DNA of 56,064 bases from Oscillospiraceae bacterium (GTDB lineage: Bacteria > Bacillota > Clostridia > Oscillospirales > Ruminococcaceae). A program made the translations under genes and the position numbers. Numbering within the stretch: the stretch's first letter is position 1; every line of letters begins with the position of its first letter. The stretch spans positions 1 to 56,064 of the forward strand of contig JAFTZY010000076.1 in assembly GCA_017460955.1 (NCBI GenBank). The letters are read 5' to 3'. Of this stretch, positions 18,016-54,394 are shown one piece after another. The notes beneath the pieces were generated by a model that did no database searches, had not been told where the DNA came from, and was given only the letters and a program-made list of their open reading frames with translations.

Positions 18016-18674
18016 AGCGTGTGATCCGCGCCGTGATCCTCGATATGGACGGCACGCTCCTCGATTCCATGCCCATCTGGCCGGAGATCGACCGGCGATT
18101 TTTCGAGGAGAACGGCCTTATGATGCCCGAAGGCCTGTCCGAGACGGTCAGCACAATGTCCATGGAGGAATGGGCGGCGTACTTCATCCGCGAATTCCAC
18201 GCACCCTACACGGTGCAGGGGGTGATCCGGCGCATTGAGGAGATGGCCGCGGAGTACTACACGTCGAGCATCCCCTTAAAGCCCCATGTCCCGGCATTTC
18301 TCGATGCACTCGATGTACACGGCATCCCCTACGGCATCGCCACGGCGACCTACCGCAGCTCCGCACGGGCGGCGCTCGGAAGGCTCCAGATCCTCTCCCG
18401 GATGCGCTTTGTCCTCACCGGGGAGGACGTCCCGTCCGGCAAGCGGCACCCGGAGATCTATCTGGAGGCGGCAAGGCGCTTGGGGAGCCCGCCGGAGGAG
18501 ACGCTTGTTGTGGAGGACTCGCTGCACTGCGTAGAAACCGCCGTGCGGGCGGGCTTTCCCACCGCCTGTGTGTTTGACCGGAGTGCCCCGCCCGGGGACT
18601 GGGAACGGATGTGTACACTGGCGGATCTGTCTGCACAGGACCTGGCAGAGCTTCGCACACAGCTTTTCCCGTAA
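18012..18674 (+). CDS. HAD-superfamily phosphatase (beta-phosphoglucomutase-like)
   Basis: A 220-residue HAD hydrolase with a C1 helical cap. The catalytic motif DMDGTLLDSMP lies at residues 11-21. Motif II is the TYRSS segment, motif III the Lys in SGKRHPEIYLEAARRLG, and motif IV is ETLVVEDSLHCVETAVRAGF. This pattern fits phosphoglycolate or sugar phosphatases and beta-phosphoglucomutases, and the substrate cannot be told from sequence. It overlaps tmcAL by ATGA, so translation is coupled. Confidence 0.88.
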   Translation: MKRVIRAVILDMDGTLLDSMPIWPEIDRRFFEENGLMMPEGLSETVSTMSMEEWAAYFIREFHAPYTVQGVIRRIEEMAAEYYTSSIPLKPHVPAFLDALDVHGIPYGIATATYRSSARAALGRLQILSRMRFVLTGEDVPSGKRHPEIYLEAARRLGSPPEETLVVEDSLHCVETAVRAGFPTACVFDRSAPPGDWERMCTLADLSAQDLAELRTQLFP

Positions 18675-18711
18675 AAATGCCCCTGAACGGAGTCAAGCCG
18701 TTCAGGGGCAT
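18672..18711. terminator. Convergent terminator
   Basis: ATGCCCCTGAACGG and CCGTTCAGGGGCAT form a perfect 14-bp stem with a seven-base loop. Five T follow on the minus strand, where it ends the hydrolase gene; on the plus strand it follows the HAD gene. Confidence 0.93.
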
Positions 18712-18718
18712 CGTGTTG

Positions 18719-19795
18719 TTAGTCGGACAGGTGTGCGTCATAGAATGCCAGAAACGTGTCAAAGAGCGACGTGTCGAGCATGTGGGACCAGCGGGTGCGG
18801 TCCAGGTTGGCATGGATGTAACCGGCCTTGTCGGCGATGAAGCGGTCCTTGTTTTCCGGGGCATTGTAGTCATACTCGAGGGTTTCGAGCCATTCGTCAA
18901 AGCCGGCGTTGAATTCGTTGATGTAGTCCCTGTTATCAAAGACGTAATTATGCCCGCGGTCCTCCAGGCGCAGGAAGGTGAAGCGGGGATCGTCCTTGTA
19001 GGCGGCATAGTACCGGTCAAAGCCGTATCCGATCGGGACGACCTCGTCATCCGCACTGTGGACGGCCATGACGGCCGCGTCGCTCGCGGCAAATCCCCCC
19101 ATGGCCGTGGCCCCGGCATATTTTCCGTAGCGGATGCGCTCGTGCAGCCGGATGAAGGGCATCATCGTGTAGATGACATCTCCGGCCTGTGCCTTGCCGC
19201 CCGCCTCGAACAGATCGGAGGAGCGGTCACAGCCGGATACCTCGATCACGGCCTTCACCTCGGGATGGTAGTTCAGTACACTGCATACGCTGTAGCCGCC
19301 CCAGCTATGGCCGAACAGCACGATCGGCAGTGCCGGGAATTCCCCGCTCTCCTCCACATAGGAGATGGCATGGTCCAGGTCGATCACGCCCTGCGGGATG
19401 CCGCCGACACCCTCGCCTTCGCTCTCGTCATTGCCCGTGGCATCGTAGGCGAACACCAGATAGCCGTGCTGCGTAAAATGATCCGCACAGGACATGTAGG
19501 AATTGTGTCCGGCACCCAGGCCGTGCGCAAGGATGACGATCCCCCTGGGGTCCTCCTCCCCGGCACGGTAGAGATAGCCCGTGAGCATCTGCCCCTTGTC
19601 GGAGGGGAAGCGGTACTGCTCCCGTGTCAGGTCCTCATAATCGTCCGTATACAGCAGATACGGCTCGTAGCTCTCGAAGCGCTTGTTGAAATTCTCGTTG
19701 TAGATGCTCACGCAGAGGGCGTAGTAGCCGATGAGCAAAAGAAGGATGAGGACACAGATGATCGTCAGGATGATGCGGCGTTTTTTGGACTTCAT
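18719..19795 (-). CDS. Membrane-anchored alpha/beta hydrolase
   Basis: A 358-residue serine hydrolase with a basic N-terminus and one membrane helix (about 8-30), so the catalytic domain is probably outside the membrane or membrane-attached. The nucleophile elbow is GHSWGG, the oxyanion segment VILAHGLGAGHNSYM, the acid probably Asp in HSADDEVVP, and the catalytic His lies in EDRGHNYVF. An acyl-peptidase/lipase-like role is likely; the substrate is unknown. Start ATG 19795 follows GGAGG. It heads away from a block of envelope-related genes but is separated from them by a hairpin. Confidence 0.88.
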   Translation of the reverse strand: MKSKKRRIILTIICVLILLLLIGYYALCVSIYNENFNKRFESYEPYLLYTDDYEDLTREQYRFPSDKGQMLTGYLYRAGEEDPRGIVILAHGLGAGHNSYMSCADHFTQHGYLVFAYDATGNDESEGEGVGGIPQGVIDLDHAISYVEESGEFPALPIVLFGHSWGGYSVCSVLNYHPEVKAVIEVSGCDRSSDLFEAGGKAQAGDVIYTMMPFIRLHERIRYGKYAGATAMGGFAASDAAVMAVHSADDEVVPIGYGFDRYYAAYKDDPRFTFLRLEDRGHNYVFDNRDYINEFNAGFDEWLETLEYDYNAPENKDRFIADKAGYIHANLDRTRWSHMLDTSLFDTFLAFYDAHLSD

Positions 19796-28639: not shown

Positions 28640-31024
28640 ATGATTTCTAAAGCAATGAGCAACCGTATGAAGGCTGCTGCCATCGCTGCACTGATGGCAC
28701 TGTCCGTTGCCGGCATGACCGTTCCCGGCATGATGACCGCATCGCTGCAGGCGGACGCCGTCGAGATCACCGACTGCGATGATCTGATCCCGTCCAAGCG
28801 CTCCGGCGTTGCAGGCTCGGAGACGTACAAGGGCGCGACCTGTGCGATCGCATCGAGCGGCATCGAGACCATCACCTTCACCGTTCTGCCCGATTACACG
28901 GGCTCCTTCTCCTGGGGCTTTGGCATCAACACCAATGATGATCCGGATTACTGGGCAGAGGTCGCCGAGGGTGAAGTGAAGAGCGTCGAGGAGGATGTTC
29001 CCTTCGAGGTCACCATCGATGTGTCCGATATCAATGTGCAGTACAATCCCGTCGGCTCCCAGTGGGAGTCCCACTATGAGTTCCGCAACTACTACAGCGG
29101 TGCGGACGGTTCCGTCAAGGTGATCGCAGCCGTGGCCAACAGCGGTGAGACCGAGGAGCCCACCGGCGCGTCCGAGGATCCGACCGATGTACCGAGCGAC
29201 ACTGCCCTCCCCTATGACGTAGAGGCTGACGGCGGCGTATATCTGGGCTATACCGCAGACCTTGCCGAGAGCGGCATCAAGAACATCACTATAACCTTCA
29301 CGGCCAACTTCACCGGCTCCGTAGCTGTCGGCTTCGGTATCGGCCTTGCCAAGGATCCGTACTGGAACGAGTACGATGCCAATGACGGCTTCAAGGAGGG
29401 CGGCGAGGGTGCCACCATCGCAGCCAAGACCCTGAACGTTGTCGAGGGCGAGGAGTATGTGGTCAAGTACGACACCTCCAAGCTGACGCTTTCCTACAAT
29501 CCCTCCACCGACCAGTATCCCGGCAAGTTTGAATTCAGAAACTACAGCAAGGACGGCTCCATCACCGTGACCGCTGTGGAGGCCAACAGCACCAAGCAGG
29601 AGTCCGAGACCGGCGCTGCCGAGGATCCCAATGCCCATGCCAACCATGACGGCTGGAAATCCGCGAACCGCACCAGCGGCTCCTGGGGCTTCACCGACAA
29701 CGGCGACGGCACCGGCGAGATCTGGAGCACCCAGGCCCGTCAGGTCGAGTTCCCCGACGAGCCCCTGACCCTGACCAAGGGCTATGATGATGACTACTAC
29801 CTGCTCAACGAGGAGCGCCATGCCATTGAGGGCGAGGATCTCATCAACAGCCACAAGTTCAGCTTCATCAATGACTTCGGTCTGGGCGATGTCGGCGGTA
29901 CGCAGACGATCGAGTCCCTGACGGCCACCATCCAGAGTGCGACCGATGTTGCCGCATTCATGTACGGCGGCGGTGTGAATGTCACCAGCGGCTCCCCTGC
30001 CGATACCGAGACAGCCAAGGCACTCAAGGGCCAGACCATTGACCCGAAGGCCGGCTACTGGTACAATGACATGGGCTATGACACCTATGAGGCAATGGTG
30101 GATGCCGGCGTGGAGTTCGGCGTCACACCCGGCTACGGCTATTATCTGACGTCTGAGGACGGCCAGCTCGGCGGCTACTTCAGCGTGGTATGGGATGTTC
30201 CCGAGGAGGTACAGCCCTATGTAACGCCCGGCGATGTTTCCTTCCAGTACTGGTACGGTACCGACAATGCCGAGGAGCCGGCCGAGATCGAGGCAGTGGA
30301 CCTCGTCGGCGGTGCAGTGACCTACACCGAGACCCGCACGATCGATTACACCGGCAGCAAGGTCGTGGATGTGGCCAAGTCCCTGACAGCCGGCGATGAC
30401 AGCACCAACAGCATCAACCTGAGCATTGCCGACGATCTTGGCATCAAGGCAAACCAGGATGTCCAGGCCCTGGTATTCACGCTCGATACCGGCAGTGCGC
30501 TTGACAAGCTCGTATACGGCATCGGCGCTTCCGTTGGCGATGACTTCAAGATGTTCTCCGATGCCGAGGCCGGCGACAACTGGAACTTCGTAGTCCTGAA
30601 TGCGGACAGCGAGACCGTTGAGATCGCATGGATCGTTCCTGCTACCGCAGATCTGAACGAGGAATACGGCAACATCCTGTTCGGCTACTGGTACGGCGAT
30701 GCAGCAGGCAAGCAGGCCGACACGATCAACCTCAAGTCCGTAGAGGTATTCTACGCTGAGGTCGAGGAGCCGACGGAGGAGCCCACACAGGCCCCCACCG
30801 AGCCGCTGAAGGTCACCCTCTGGGGCGATGCCGATGTGGACGGCGACTGCGATATCATCGACGTTATCTGCGTGAACAAGGACCAGCTCGGTTCCTTCAC
30901 CCTGACTGCACAGGGCGTTGTCAATGCCGATGTGGACCAGAACAATGTGATGACCTTCTCTGACGGCGTCAACATCCTCAAGTCCCTGGTAGATCTGGTA
31001 ACGCTCCCTGTATCGGGATCCTAA
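28640..31024 (+). CDS. Secreted multi-domain dockerin protein (cellulosome-type)
   Basis: A 794-residue exported protein. A signal peptide (basic start, hydrophobic core, likely cleavage near ADA, about residue 40) precedes two homologous beta-rich domains (about 45-165 and 190-320) sharing SGI.I..F....TGS...GFGI and FEFRNY-type motifs, two larger related beta domains (about 330-555 and 560-705) sharing QYWYG/GYWYGD, a Thr/Pro/Glu linker, and a C-terminal type I dockerin (about 728-794). Its two calcium loops are DADVDGDCDIID and DVDQNNVMTFSD. No glycoside hydrolase catalytic motif was recognised; carbohydrate-binding modules are the best guess. A perfect terminator follows. Confidence 0.85.
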   Translation: MISKAMSNRMKAAAIAALMALSVAGMTVPGMMTASLQADAVEITDCDDLIPSKRSGVAGSETYKGATCAIASSGIETITFTVLPDYTGSFSWGFGINTNDDPDYWAEVAEGEVKSVEEDVPFEVTIDVSDINVQYNPVGSQWESHYEFRNYYSGADGSVKVIAAVANSGETEEPTGASEDPTDVPSDTALPYDVEADGGVYLGYTADLAESGIKNITITFTANFTGSVAVGFGIGLAKDPYWNEYDANDGFKEGGEGATIAAKTLNVVEGEEYVVKYDTSKLTLSYNPSTDQYPGKFEFRNYSKDGSITVTAVEANSTKQESETGAAEDPNAHANHDGWKSANRTSGSWGFTDNGDGTGEIWSTQARQVEFPDEPLTLTKGYDDDYYLLNEERHAIEGEDLINSHKFSFINDFGLGDVGGTQTIESLTATIQSATDVAAFMYGGGVNVTSGSPADTETAKALKGQTIDPKAGYWYNDMGYDTYEAMVDAGVEFGVTPGYGYYLTSEDGQLGGYFSVVWDVPEEVQPYVTPGDVSFQYWYGTDNAEEPAEIEAVDLVGGAVTYTETRTIDYTGSKVVDVAKSLTAGDDSTNSINLSIADDLGIKANQDVQALVFTLDTGSALDKLVYGIGASVGDDFKMFSDAEAGDNWNFVVLNADSETVEIAWIVPATADLNEEYGNILFGYWYGDAAGKQADTINLKSVEVFYAEVEEPTEEPTQAPTEPLKVTLWGDADVDGDCDIIDVICVNKDQLGSFTLTAQGVVNADVDQNNVMTFSDGVNILKSLVDLVTLPVSGS

Positions 31025-46184: not shown

Positions 46185-49197
<3,013 letters not shown>

Positions 49198-49249
49198 GAA
49201 GATGCCATCCTTTCCTTTTCTTTCTCTGTGCATCGATTTTCATCTGTTA

Positions 49250-49364: not shown

Positions 49365-49401
49365 AAGCGGCCCCGGGATCCTCTCCGGGGGCCGCTTTTT
49401 T
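49365..49401 (+). terminator. GC-rich hairpin after the LRR-dockerin gene
   Basis: AAGCGGCCCCGG pairs with CCGGGGGCCGCTT (one bulged G). The T6 run is on the plus side, although the adjacent gene reads leftward, so for that gene the hairpin lacks a T-run and may work as a 3'-end barrier. Confidence 0.7.
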
Positions 49402-51146
49402 CAGTTCTGCTGCGTGAGCACCTGCTTGAGCAGGCACAGGTCCAGGACGTTGAGACAAGCATCGTCGTTCATATCGGCATTGCGCCAGTAGGGAAGTGCA
49501 TCGGCGGCCGTCAGGAGCCGCTTCTGGAGCAGCACGGCATCGGCCACCGTGACAGCGCCGTCAAAGTTGACATCGCCCTTGACAGGGGCCTGTACCCGGA
49601 TGCATCCGTCCTGGGTGCGCATGTCGATCTGCGCCCCGTCAAGACTTGCGGCACTTGCGCTGACCGTGAGCGGATAGTCCCCTGCCTTCTCGGGCACGGT
49701 GAAGAACACGGAAAAGAGCGCCCCCGTGTTCGTGGTGGCCTTGCCGGTGTCCACGAAGCTGATCCACCCGGCGGACTGGTTGACGGTCGCGATGTTGCTG
49801 CCCGTCAGTGCCGCAGGACCGCTGATCGTGTAGGCACCGTTTGCGACCCCCGACTCCTTGCGCACGGCCAGGGAGGGACCGAACTGCATGGTCAGGGAGA
49901 TCGTGTCATAGCCGGGATTGCGCTCGACGAAAACCGGGCAGCGCACGGTCTCGCCGGGGGCTGCATACAGCGTGGGGATGTACAGCCGCACCTGTGCGGG
50001 CAGGGGGGAAAAGAGTCTGCAATAATAACCGGAGCTCCCCGCACTGCCGCCCGCGATCACAGCGTAGGTGCCGTCGCCGCTGATGCAGGTCTCCAGGTCC
50101 TCGTCGGTCACCCAGCCGTAGCCGTTCCGGAGGGCCATCTCCTCGGTGATGCTGCCGGTCTGCGGTCCGACACGGAGCAGCTCGAGCATGCCGCAGTTTG
50201 CAAAGACATCCGTCTTATCGGATACGCGGTCGAGCGCAAAGGCGTCCAGATCCACGGTGCGCAGCAGGGTGCAGCCGTCAAACATGTGCGCCATCGTGAC
50301 CAGGCTGTCCGAGCGGAATGTGCTCAGATCCAGCTCCTGGAACGACCCGCAGCCGCGGAACATCCCGCTCATATCCGTGACGGCGGCGGTGTCAAGGACC
50401 ATCTGCTCCAGATCGGAGAGGACGGCGCAGTCCCGGAACATCTCACGCATATCCGTGACAGCGGAGGTATCAAAGCCCGTCAGATCCAGTCGGCTAAGGG
50501 AAGCGCAGCCGCGGAACATCCCGCTCATATCCGTGACGGCGGAGGTGTCAAGCCCCGTCAGCTCCAGATCGGAGAGGACGGCGCAGTCCCGGAACATCCC
50601 CGCCATCGTCCGCACCGCGCCGGTATCCATTCCGCCCGTGTAGAGGAAGAGCAGGGAGGTGCAGCCGTAGAACATGCCGCTCATGTCCTCGACGCTGTGC
50701 GTATCCCATCCGTACAGCTCGATGTCGGGGAGTGCAGTGCAGCCGCGGAACATCCCGGCCATGGTCACGACATGTCCGGTGTCAAGCTCGTCCAGCGTGA
50801 CCGTATGCAGGGAGGTGCAGCCGCGGAACATCTCACGCATATCCGTGACGCGGCTCGTGTCGGCAAGGGATAGGTCGATGCTTTGGCAGCTTGTAAAGTC
50901 CGCAAACAGGGTGGAGCAGTCCTCGGGGAACACGGCCGTGTCCTCTGCCCAGATGGCCTCGACGGCCTCCTTCTGCGCAAATCCGGTGATCTCCTCGGCT
51001 GTCACCTCCCCGCTGATCTGGAGCACGCTCCCGTCCTCGATGAAGCGGCAGCACGTCCCCTCGGCGCGTGCGACCGGCGGAAGTCCTCCGCTCATGCCGC
51101 ACAGCAGCACCGCAAGCGCACCTGCCATGAGCTTTCGGATCCTCAT
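49401..51146 (-). CDS. Secreted LRR-cohesin-dockerin protein (candidate adaptor scaffoldin)
   Basis: A 581-residue exported protein. Signal peptide about 1-28 (ends ARA). Eight exact 26-residue BspA/DUF285 leucine-rich repeats plus the start of a ninth: the (D/T)MxxMFxxC motif begins at residues 102, 128, 154, 180, 206, 232, 258, 284 and 310. A beta-sandwich at about 385-518 looks like a cohesin (PGETVRCPVFV, ISLTMQFGPSLAV, GALFSVFFTVPEKAGDYPLTV). A type I dockerin (about 524-581) has calcium loops DVNFDGAVTVAD and DMNDDACLNVLD. The protein could therefore dock onto one scaffold and bind another dockerin. ATG 51146 follows GGAGGGGAT. Confidence 0.85.
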   Translation of the reverse strand: MRIRKLMAGALAVLLCGMSGGLPPVARAEGTCCRFIEDGSVLQISGEVTAEEITGFAQKEAVEAIWAEDTAVFPEDCSTLFADFTSCQSIDLSLADTSRVTDMREMFRGCTSLHTVTLDELDTGHVVTMAGMFRGCTALPDIELYGWDTHSVEDMSGMFYGCTSLLFLYTGGMDTGAVRTMAGMFRDCAVLSDLELTGLDTSAVTDMSGMFRGCASLSRLDLTGFDTSAVTDMREMFRDCAVLSDLEQMVLDTAAVTDMSGMFRGCGSFQELDLSTFRSDSLVTMAHMFDGCTLLRTVDLDAFALDRVSDKTDVFANCGMLELLRVGPQTGSITEEMALRNGYGWVTDEDLETCISGDGTYAVIAGGSAGSSGYYCRLFSPLPAQVRLYIPTLYAAPGETVRCPVFVERNPGYDTISLTMQFGPSLAVRKESGVANGAYTISGPAALTGSNIATVNQSAGWISFVDTGKATTNTGALFSVFFTVPEKAGDYPLTVSASAASLDGAQIDMRTQDGCIRVQAPVKGDVNFDGAVTVADAVLLQKRLLTAADALPYWRNADMNDDACLNVLDLCLLKQVLTQQN

Positions 51147-51220: not shown

Positions 51221-51249
51221 ATTGTACCATAATCCTCGCGGATTGTCAA
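51221..51249 (-). promoter_or_regulatory. Promoter of the LRR-cohesin-dockerin gene
   Basis: Minus strand: TTGACA (51249-51244), a 17-base spacer, TACAAT (51226-51221). Confidence 0.82.
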
Positions 51250-52422: not shown

Positions 52423-52457
52423 TCTAACCTCTAACCTCTCACCTCTAACTTCTAAAA
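52423..52457. repeat. Five-copy 7-bp tandem repeat
   Basis: Units TCTAACC, TCTAACC, TCTCACC, TCTAACT and TCTAAAA run head to tail. The last unit overlaps the lipoprotein stop codon at 52452-52454. Confidence 0.8.
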
Positions 52458-54350
52458 GTTCAGCGCTTCGATGGCATCCTCCGTAAAGGGGTGGAACTCG
52501 GGGGTGATCTCCTTCCCGTCACCGAACAGGCTCTTGTGCCAGGTCTCAAAATCCTCCGCATCCATCGGCTCGGTCTCCGAACCGTCCATGGCCGTGTCCA
52601 CATAGTACACACGCCCCGTGCCGCTCGTGTCCGCTTCCTCCGGATACCCGTCGGGCTCGAGCGCCTGTTCCCATGCGCTCACGGCAGCGGTCTGCGTGTA
52701 GGTGTCCGTGCTGCTGTCATAGGTGTAGAGCATGTACGGCCAGAGATCCCCGGACGGTCCCTGGTTGTGCAGCCAGTCCGCCGTCACCGTGCCGCCCTCA
52801 TAGAAGGTCAGATGGGGCGTTGCCGTCAGCTCCACATGCAGTCCGCCGTCCGCATCCTCACCGTAGACCACACCGATCATGCTGGCAGCTGCGGTCGTCG
52901 TGACCTTCACGATCAGCTCCTGCGCACCGTCACCGTCCACGTCACAGAGCGCAAATTCGTTCCCGGAAATATCCCCGTCGGTCAGGATCTCCAGATCCAC
53001 TCCCTGCAAATATCCGCCGTAGTAGAACGATTCCACGACCTCCCGGAACGCCTCGGGGAGCTGTGCTGCCGGCTGTGCGTCATCCTCGTTCTCCGCCGCA
53101 GGGGTCCCCGCAGCTGCCGTTTCCGGATCGAGGGCGGCTTCCTTCGTCAGCGGGATCTCCCGGCCAAGGGTGAGCGCCTCGCCCGTCACAAAGCCGTCGA
53201 GCATGGCACGGTAGGCCTCCCCGGTGACCGGCTGTCCGGCCAGCTTGTACATGGGCTGCTCGTCGGAGTCCGGATCGACCGCACCCTCGTTGTCCTCATA
53301 GGTAAGCACCTCCTGAAGGACCAGATCCTCCCCGAGCGCCAGGTACGAGCCCGTCGTGTAGCCCATGCCCGAATAGGTGCTCAGCAGGCGCTTCTGCACG
53401 GGAAAGTATGCGACCTCGCCGTAGCTGCCGAGGTGGCCCAGACTGCGCAGGCCGTCCCGGTAGGTGAGGATCTGCACCCCGGCGGCATGGTACAAGCCCT
53501 GCGAATAGAAGAGCTCCGGGGTACCGTCGGCATTCAGATCGTAGAGGGAGAAGGCGGGTCCCCACTCGGGGTCCTCCTGCTCCTCCGGGAGTTGGCTGAT
53601 GAGGAAGGCACTGTAGGCGTCCGCCCACGGGAGGTCCTCCCGGAGGACGGCATCGACAACGGCATCGTCGAGCGGAAAATCCTCCCCCAGGTATTTGGAA
53701 AAGCCCCCGGAATACTCGTAGAAGGCATCGTAATAGGTATCCGCATCCACGGACTCGTCGTCGAGCTCGTAGGAGGATTCATCCCCCGCCCAGATGGTCT
53801 TGAGAACATGGTCCGGCGCGAAGGTGTGATCGGAGCGGAGCTTTGCAAAATAGAGGCAGGATGCACCGTCCTCCTCGCCCTGGAGCAGGAGGTGTCCGGA
53901 GTCGGTCAGAAGGCTCATGCTGCTGTAATCATCGGCGGGGATCTCCACGCCCGCACCGTTCGCAAAGGCGTAGCAGACATGGCTGCCCTTGGTCCAGGTG
54001 CCGTCAGAGAGGATGAGCTCCGGGGTGCCGTCGGCATTGAGATCGTCAAGGGAAAAGAGGGCATCCGCGTTGTGGTCCTGCCGGTAATCGGCGATCAGCT
54101 GCCGGTAGACGTCATGCCAGTCCCCGCTCGCCGGTGCCTCGGTACCGTCCTCGGAGGTGGGCTCGGTCTCCTCCGGCAGGGCCTGTGTCGGGGCATCCTC
54201 CGCCTCGGTCGCCTCCGCCTTGCCCTGTGTTTCCTCCTCTGCCGCGGACTGCGTTTGCTCACGGGACTGCAGCAGGGAGGCAGCCAGTCCGCAGCCCGTC
54301 TGTGTACATAGTAATGCGGCGATACAGCCTATTGCGATCTGTTTTTTCAT
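52452..54350 (-). CDS. Large acidic lipoprotein with D-x-N-x-D-G-x-PEL repeats
   Basis: A 632-residue predicted lipoprotein. I chose the ATG at 54350 because AGGAGG is 8 bases before it; an ATG two codons earlier is too close. The signal peptide ends in the lipobox TQTGC (Cys near 20). An acidic Glu/Thr/Pro stalk (about 30-75) leads to a large extracellular body with three calcium-loop-like repeats, SLDDLNADGTPELILSDG, SLYDLNADGTPELFYSQG and ALCDVDGDGAQELIVK. These resemble EF-hand or integrin-type calcium loops in beta-propeller proteins. No enzyme motif was recognised. The first repeat resembles the lipoprotein at 43517. Confidence 0.82.
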   Translation of the reverse strand: MKKQIAIGCIAALLCTQTGCGLAASLLQSREQTQSAAEEETQGKAEATEAEDAPTQALPEETEPTSEDGTEAPASGDWHDVYRQLIADYRQDHNADALFSLDDLNADGTPELILSDGTWTKGSHVCYAFANGAGVEIPADDYSSMSLLTDSGHLLLQGEEDGASCLYFAKLRSDHTFAPDHVLKTIWAGDESSYELDDESVDADTYYDAFYEYSGGFSKYLGEDFPLDDAVVDAVLREDLPWADAYSAFLISQLPEEQEDPEWGPAFSLYDLNADGTPELFYSQGLYHAAGVQILTYRDGLRSLGHLGSYGEVAYFPVQKRLLSTYSGMGYTTGSYLALGEDLVLQEVLTYEDNEGAVDPDSDEQPMYKLAGQPVTGEAYRAMLDGFVTGEALTLGREIPLTKEAALDPETAAAGTPAAENEDDAQPAAQLPEAFREVVESFYYGGYLQGVDLEILTDGDISGNEFALCDVDGDGAQELIVKVTTTAAASMIGVVYGEDADGGLHVELTATPHLTFYEGGTVTADWLHNQGPSGDLWPYMLYTYDSSTDTYTQTAAVSAWEQALEPDGYPEEADTSGTGRVYYVDTAMDGSETEPMDAEDFETWHKSLFGDGKEITPEFHPFTEDAIEALNF

Positions 54351-54394
54351 GGACATCTCCTCCTGTCATACAGCATTCGGCCGCTGCTTCTATG

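Follow-up and report, generated by a model that had tools for sequence, protein, structure and literature searches.

The gene at 49401–51146 on the reverse strand of a 56,064-nt contig from an Oscillospiraceae bacterium (JAFTZY010000076.1 of assembly GCA_017460955.1; this whole stretch of DNA is here called the window) raises the question of what a protein does that places a repeat array, a cohesin and a dockerin in a single chain. We conclude that it is probably secreted and serves a ruminococcal cellulosome as an adaptor scaffoldin with one cohesin. Sequence and predicted fold both point to a cohesin module, and sequence to a dockerin in the same chain. The apparent module order of LRR, cohesin and dockerin, with the LRR part assigned by predicted fold, is that of ScaI of Ruminococcus flavefaciens. 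The modules and their coordinates are listed in Table 1.

Table 1. Features of the gene and its upstream region in the window
Feature	Coordinates	Strand	Basis
Entire gene; 581-aa product (signal-like N-terminus counted) with PARCEL/LRR-like head, cohesin and dockerin	49401..51146	-	ORF list (ATG start) and Pfam/TIGRFAM profiles
Promoter-like site TTGACA-17-TACAAT	51221..51249	-	11/12 consensus matches, TG preceding the second hexamer
Probable signal peptide, residues 1-28	51063..51146	-	Sequence read by eye
N-terminal solenoid cap, residues 29-92	50871..51062	-	Alignment scores against nine other caps
PARCEL/DUF285 repeats, eight of 26 residues each (residues 93-300); solenoid predicted to be LRR-like	50247..50870	-	Profiles, model, structural matches
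Degenerate ninth repeat and linker, residues 301-379	50010..50246	-	Linker type common to sibling PARCEL-dockerin proteins
Cohesin module, residues 384-520	49587..49997	-	Sequence profiles and predicted fold
Most conserved cohesin block, residues 429-468; candidate partner-binding surface	49743..49862	-	24/40 columns invariant among four relatives
Dockerin module, residues 523-577	49416..49580	-	PF00404; crude sequence class also borne by the genome's GH43, pectate lyase and deacetylase proteins

The gene and its repeat head

A single promoter-like site was identified between positions 49200 and 51400, at 51249–51221, where shuffled sequences contain 0.5 on average (counts of consensus matches only), and the ribosome-binding sequence appears good by eye. 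The flanking genes encode a Mem_trans permease and a protein without a Pfam match at 1e-5, and the gene thus looks like a single-gene unit; the neighbours are the permease gene, a regulator-like gene and pyrG, the last two named by eye. Nothing suggestive of a mobile patch was noticed in these neighbours or in base composition, G+C content being 0.603 for the window, 0.639 for the gene and 0.660 for the cohesin. Also on the reverse strand are genes for a 430-aa protein (47941–49233) with a ROK-regulator-like helix-turn-helix start by eye and no Pfam match at 1e-5, and for a lipoprotein-like (by eye) 634-aa protein (52452–54356) in which an FG-GAP repeat is matched around residue 465. Pfam profiles were run on ten of the other ORFs of the window, some possibly in the wrong strand. 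The N-terminus of the window protein looks by eye like a signal peptide and would direct its export.

The repeat head contains eight MF-x-[DG]-C motifs over residues 93–300, with all seven intervals exactly 26 residues long, and a ninth, degenerate copy. The first-pass annotation had described eight exact 26-residue repeats of BspA type. Number and register stand, while the copies are not identical (mean identity between repeats 47% for protein, range 23–73%, and 58% for DNA, range 41–81%) and the BspA-type LRR_5 profile (PF13306) scores 22.6 bits on the window protein, under its cut-off of 27.7. The array matches TIGR02167 at 135 bits (cut-off 30) in six stretches and PF03382 at 152.4 bits (cut-off 25). 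By sequence family, the repeats are PARCEL/DUF285 repeats. Such repeats have been described from mycoplasmas and many other microbes, with a canonical period of 25 rather than 26 residues (PMC2996958), and the tandem arrangement is that of PARCEL/DUF285 surface proteins. In a term search, the main text of that paper proved to contain neither dockerin nor cohesin nor Ruminococcus.

The repeats are likened to LRRs through their predicted fold, a solenoid that resembles LRR proteins. When a single-sequence AlphaFold model of the mature protein was searched with Foldseek, no hit reached E <= 0.001, although the top four entries are all LRR receptors or LRR proteins. The C-terminal half of this model was not useful.

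DUF285 repeats are encoded in ten frames of the genome, and nine of these also encode a dockerin (it is absent from the frame on contig C75). None of the eight sibling PARCEL-dockerin proteins scores above 0.7 bits to either of two cohesin profiles. A cohesin as a common trait of PARCEL-dockerin proteins is ruled out, as only the window protein has one among the nine.

Cohesin and dockerin modules

The Pfam cohesin profile (PF00963) aligns with residues 390–518 over profile positions 5–139 of 139. On the full-length protein the score is 23.1 bits, narrowly below the 24.1 cut-off, and on the domain alone it is 27.4 bits. This near-threshold score fits PMC11557425, where Ruminococcus cohesins are called highly divergent and beyond the reach of the standard profiles. 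A profile built from six other cohesins scores 45.3 bits on the window cohesin, against 8.8 for the best shuffled sequence (912 reported of 1000). Five of the six come from multi-cohesin or cohesin-dockerin (Coh-Doc) proteins and one from an anchored-looking protein; the set is partly dependent, as three were found with the window domain as query. The other three, two from contig C52 and one from C69, entered via Pfam. Profile-profile comparison of the window cohesin with this set gave 97.9%, and a profile of the window cohesin and three relatives found, among PDB sequences, the ScaB cohesins of R. flavefaciens (1e-7) and ScaE (2zf9; 0.0025).

An AlphaFold model of the domain built from three rows has a pLDDT of 77.2 and a pTM of 0.71. 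Among the 50 Foldseek matches listed for it, the top 17 are cohesins or cohesin-bearing entries (E 4.6e-9 to 8.7e-6, TM 0.65–0.80 by query) and the other 33 are antibody-type chains (E 1.7e-4 and weaker, TM about 0.3); all 50 VIA-align matches listed are cohesins or cohesin-bearing entries. The first-pass annotation had called the cohesin its weakest link, to be refuted if residues 385–518 modelled as some other fold; model and structural matches came out as cohesin. Together, the profiles, the profile-profile comparison, the predicted fold and the structural matches rule out an artefact and support a single chain in which cohesin and dockerin follow an LRR-like array. The type is less clear: by sequence profile the domain is nearest ScaB, a type III cohesin, and by structure nearest type I and ScaC, and the deep branches of the cohesin tree are weak.

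We consider residues 429–468 the likely partner surface. Among four relatives, 24 of these 40 columns are invariant, compared with 24 of 99 elsewhere in the domain, a concentration reached by 21 of 10,000 column permutations. Counted against the adaptor reading is a pLDDT below 50 at residues 432–449, within this proposed docking block, which is the region of lowest certainty in the model.

A cohesin fold could also be kept as a structural or carbohydrate-facing module that binds no dockerin, which would leave a plain dockerin-borne LRR-like protein. The structural matches include cohesin-fold modules from outside cellulosomes (2xdh from Archaeoglobus fulgidus, 2jh2 and 2vo8 from Clostridium perfringens), the window cohesin is just 18–24% identical to the C52 and C69 cohesins of its own genome, and several suspected cohesins of R. 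flavefaciens are still unconfirmed according to PMC2930009. We nevertheless find this reading improbable, given the conservation of the 40-residue block above the rest of the domain, the many dockerins and other cohesins of this organism, and the place of related cohesins at the end of three-cohesin proteins.

A genome search for other cohesins and dockerins, suggested with the first-pass annotation as a check, returned at least 126 dockerin matches at E 0.001 (150 of 214 candidates scored) and, with PF00963 at E 0.1, six cohesin matches at three places: four on C52 (one above the cut-off), one on C69 within a Coh-Doc protein, and one on C20, where the cohesin is partial and interrupted by a TGA. 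The C52 scaffoldin extends past the end of its contig. The window's own cohesin was not listed by this PF00963 search, and the list of cohesins for the genome is thus incomplete. We count this omission, and the sub-threshold score in the full-length protein, against the adaptor reading. The C20 gene (129299–130435, reverse strand; L037) encodes a lipoprotein-like N-terminus, an acidic linker and a TGA-cut cohesin at profile positions 2–71 of 139; it may represent an anchoring scaffoldin in which the frame is interrupted or the assembly is at fault.

The dockerin matches PF00404 at 34.2 bits. Both calcium loops have the residues expected of the calcium-loop motif (D525-x-N-x-D529...D536 and D558-x-N-x-D562...D569), in agreement with the two intact loops initially described. 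Dockerins were sorted into classes by simple sequence patterns in 50 stretches, which represent only part of the 126 genome matches; class I has 24 members, counting the dockerin of the window protein, class II has 14 and class III three, and nine stretches remain unassigned, one of these nine (L122+144) being a false pattern match. In this crude scheme, the window dockerin is class I, as are those on GH43, pectate lyase, deacetylase and LRR_5 proteins of the genome. Class II includes the C52 scaffoldin's own dockerin and those of four of the eight sibling PARCEL-dockerin proteins, and class III those of the C69 Coh-Doc protein, the protein encoded at 28640 in the window and a GH10 protein.

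Two aspects of this distribution count against the adaptor reading. Enzyme dockerins are not solely class I, the GH10 protein bearing one unassigned and one class III dockerin, and the class III dockerin of the C69 Coh-Doc protein implies that adaptors here need not share one docking site.

Other dockerin proteins were also identified. A GH10 and CBM4_9 protein on C39 (L101:424-2589) ends in two tandem dockerin-like stretches of differing sequence classes. A 1269-aa frame on C9 (L118:222-4028) has dockerin as its only Pfam family at 1e-5, and its dockerin is among the two in the genome that score highest against the window dockerin. The window gene at 28640–31024 (forward strand) encodes a protein with DUF5620 in three stretches; its C-terminal dockerin is weak (PF00404, 10.5 bits), belongs to the WGDADxDGDCDIIDV class and closely resembles that of the C69 Coh-Doc protein. 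As a natural partner of the window cohesin this class III dockerin is unsupported, since nothing ties the two together, though it might bind.

Relatives and family history

A tblastn search of 396 family genomes with the linker and cohesin gave matches in 11 genomes at E 1e-5; among these, a close cohesin beyond the own genome was found solely in genome G056 (60%), and the others have a weak cohesin or the linker alone. With the cohesin at E 0.001, 8 of 38 genomes of the own genus match, these being the own genome and seven at 29–38% identity. Three of the four loci read among the seven have several cohesins per frame and the fourth, in G014, has one in the stretch seen; G001, G009 and G020 lie outside the four. 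Matches at E 1e-15 occur in 5 of 125 genomes from the genus to which G056 belongs. Within the own genus the close form is present in 1 of 38 genomes and within the other genus in 5 of 125, and two of the six copies look broken. The family is rare and patchy, which we count against the adaptor reading. A scan of viral contigs found no relative.

The G056 relative has PARCEL repeats, cohesin and dockerin in the order of the window protein, but differs in having two cohesins, an in-frame TGA within the repeat array and, after the dockerin, an extra C-terminal stretch matching the L7/L12 C-terminal domain (L067/L083). Its contig matches one of Ruminococcus sp. RGIG5122, a roe deer rumen MAG, that has the same gene (L083); a scan of genome contigs gave this locus alone. 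Its last cohesin is 58–60% identical to the window cohesin, and its cap is the closest among the nine compared (alignment score 184, compared with 94–132 for the eight sibling caps). Thus, the two PARCEL-cohesin proteins look related over their whole length.

Three other relatives (G453, G426 and G436, G426 being nearly identical to G453 by eye) have a signal-like start and the arrangement Coh-Coh-Coh-Doc, with repeats absent; Pfam identifies three cohesin stretches in each of G453 and G436. Their last cohesin, 47–49% identical to the window cohesin, and the dockerin correspond to the window pair, with two further cohesins where the window protein has the PARCEL solenoid. A fifth relative (G506, contig C6, about 18300–19160; L125) is in pieces across several frames, with a signal-like start, a PARCEL-type cap, a first-cohesin remnant, a last cohesin and a dockerin, and looks decayed. 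In addition, G223, in another genus, encodes two proteins that combine LRR_5 with cohesin-like and dockerin-like stretches, apparently as LRR_5-Coh-Doc (L068:755-2527) and Coh-LRR_5-Doc (L073:443-2023); their putative cohesins are 30–31% tblastn matches that Pfam does not call at E 0.1, and the L073 dockerin is below the cut-off.

In a cohesin tree of 22 rows (G426 and G506 left out; 2 of 19 inner branches starred), the window cohesin groups with the second cohesin of G056 and the third cohesins of G453 and G436 (87/97, below the starred threshold), and the first cohesin of G056 groups with the first cohesins of G453 and G436 (84/71, an open fork). Given this grouping, and relatives of both PARCEL-Coh-Coh-Doc and Coh-Coh-Coh-Doc form, heads and cohesins seem to have been exchanged within one small scaffoldin family. 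We tentatively suggest a lineage comprising Coh1-Coh2-Coh3-Doc, PARCEL-Coh1-Coh3-Doc and PARCEL-Coh3-Doc, in which an enzyme rack may have become a targeting adaptor, one that takes up an enzyme position and delivers a single dockerin partner to a surface it recognises. The change may have been either loss of cohesins or fusion of a head, and neither direction is favoured.

The cohesin-dockerin pair is kept in the other-genus relatives despite different front parts, and ends the three-cohesin proteins there. Such joint retention would also suit a cohesin that pairs with dockerins like the one in its own chain, and with that one too, to form chains, rings or a closed form rather than recruit another class. 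In R. flavefaciens, the ScaH dockerin did recognise its own cohesin; the ScaC cohesin, however, binds dockerins of groups 3 and 6, whereas the ScaC dockerin is group 1b (PMC5301203). We regard self-association as unlikely for the window protein and retain the adaptor reading, with a partner of a different class.

Proposed place in the cellulosome

The first-pass annotation had proposed a possible new adaptor scaffoldin with an unusual combination of modules, which is only partly right. Table 1 of PMC5301203 lists ScaI of R. flavefaciens FD-1 (ZP_06145744) as 'LRR-Coh-Doc', the same order of LRR, single cohesin and C-terminal dockerin; LRR-dockerin proteins are also common in R. flavefaciens, with 28 under 'Leucine-rich Rpt' in a table that covers 222 dockerin sequences (PMC2930009). 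The layout is thus already known, and the PARCEL identity of the head was not found in print in the full-text papers searched. Full-text searches returned no paper with DUF285 together with dockerin (subscription papers are mostly outside their scope), and for cohesin, dockerin and BspA only papers that are off-topic by title (beta-alanine synthesis in E. coli; L-lysine synthesis).

The window protein differs from the published description of ScaI in two other respects, its hydrolase-class dockerin and its tie to three-cohesin proteins. The ScaI dockerin, here compared by description only, is of group 4a; in ELISA it binds ScaE, roughly tenfold more weakly than do the CttA, ScaH and ScaF dockerins (PMC5301203). 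The window dockerin is in the class found on several hydrolases of its own genome. ScaC, ScaM, ScaO, ScaF and ScaH are Coh-Doc proteins without an LRR head (PMC5301203). Each R. flavefaciens strain has 5–11 proteins that combine a single cohesin with a single dockerin, and these have been proposed as adaptors (PMC4081043). In R. flavefaciens, group-1 dockerins, many of which belong to enzymes, are scored positive with the cohesins of ScaA and ScaB; group-1 dockerins are also present on several Coh-Doc proteins (PMC5301203, Table 1). By analogy, the window protein should occupy an enzyme position on a scaffoldin and hold one further partner. Counted against this reading, most dockerins of R. 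flavefaciens LRR proteins showed no binding to the cohesins tested on microarrays (PMC5301203).

As an adaptor, the exported protein would plug into the same scaffoldin cohesins as hydrolases with class I dockerins, and its cohesin would hold one partner with a dockerin of a different class, probably docking via the conserved block. The solenoid may offer a ligand-binding surface to a polysaccharide, the cell wall or another cell. One enzyme position would thereby be traded for one dockerin partner and a recognition head.

It is also possible, if rather unlikely, that the protein is chiefly an adhesin or sensor, with a PARCEL/LRR-like head that binds a host glycan or another cell and cellulosome modules that merely place this head. 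For placement alone the cohesin would be superfluous, and the dockerin is not class II, the type of the C52 scaffoldin and of half of the eight siblings. We prefer the adaptor reading. To our knowledge, LRR dockerin proteins have no established role.

Within the set of R. flavefaciens dockerin proteins, those with LRRs form a substantial group (PMC2930009). As the ScaI cohesin was insoluble when expressed (PMC5301203), the window cohesin and its relatives are alternative material. With a dockerin in nine of the ten frames that bear DUF285, this genome has PARCEL repeats built into a cellulosome.
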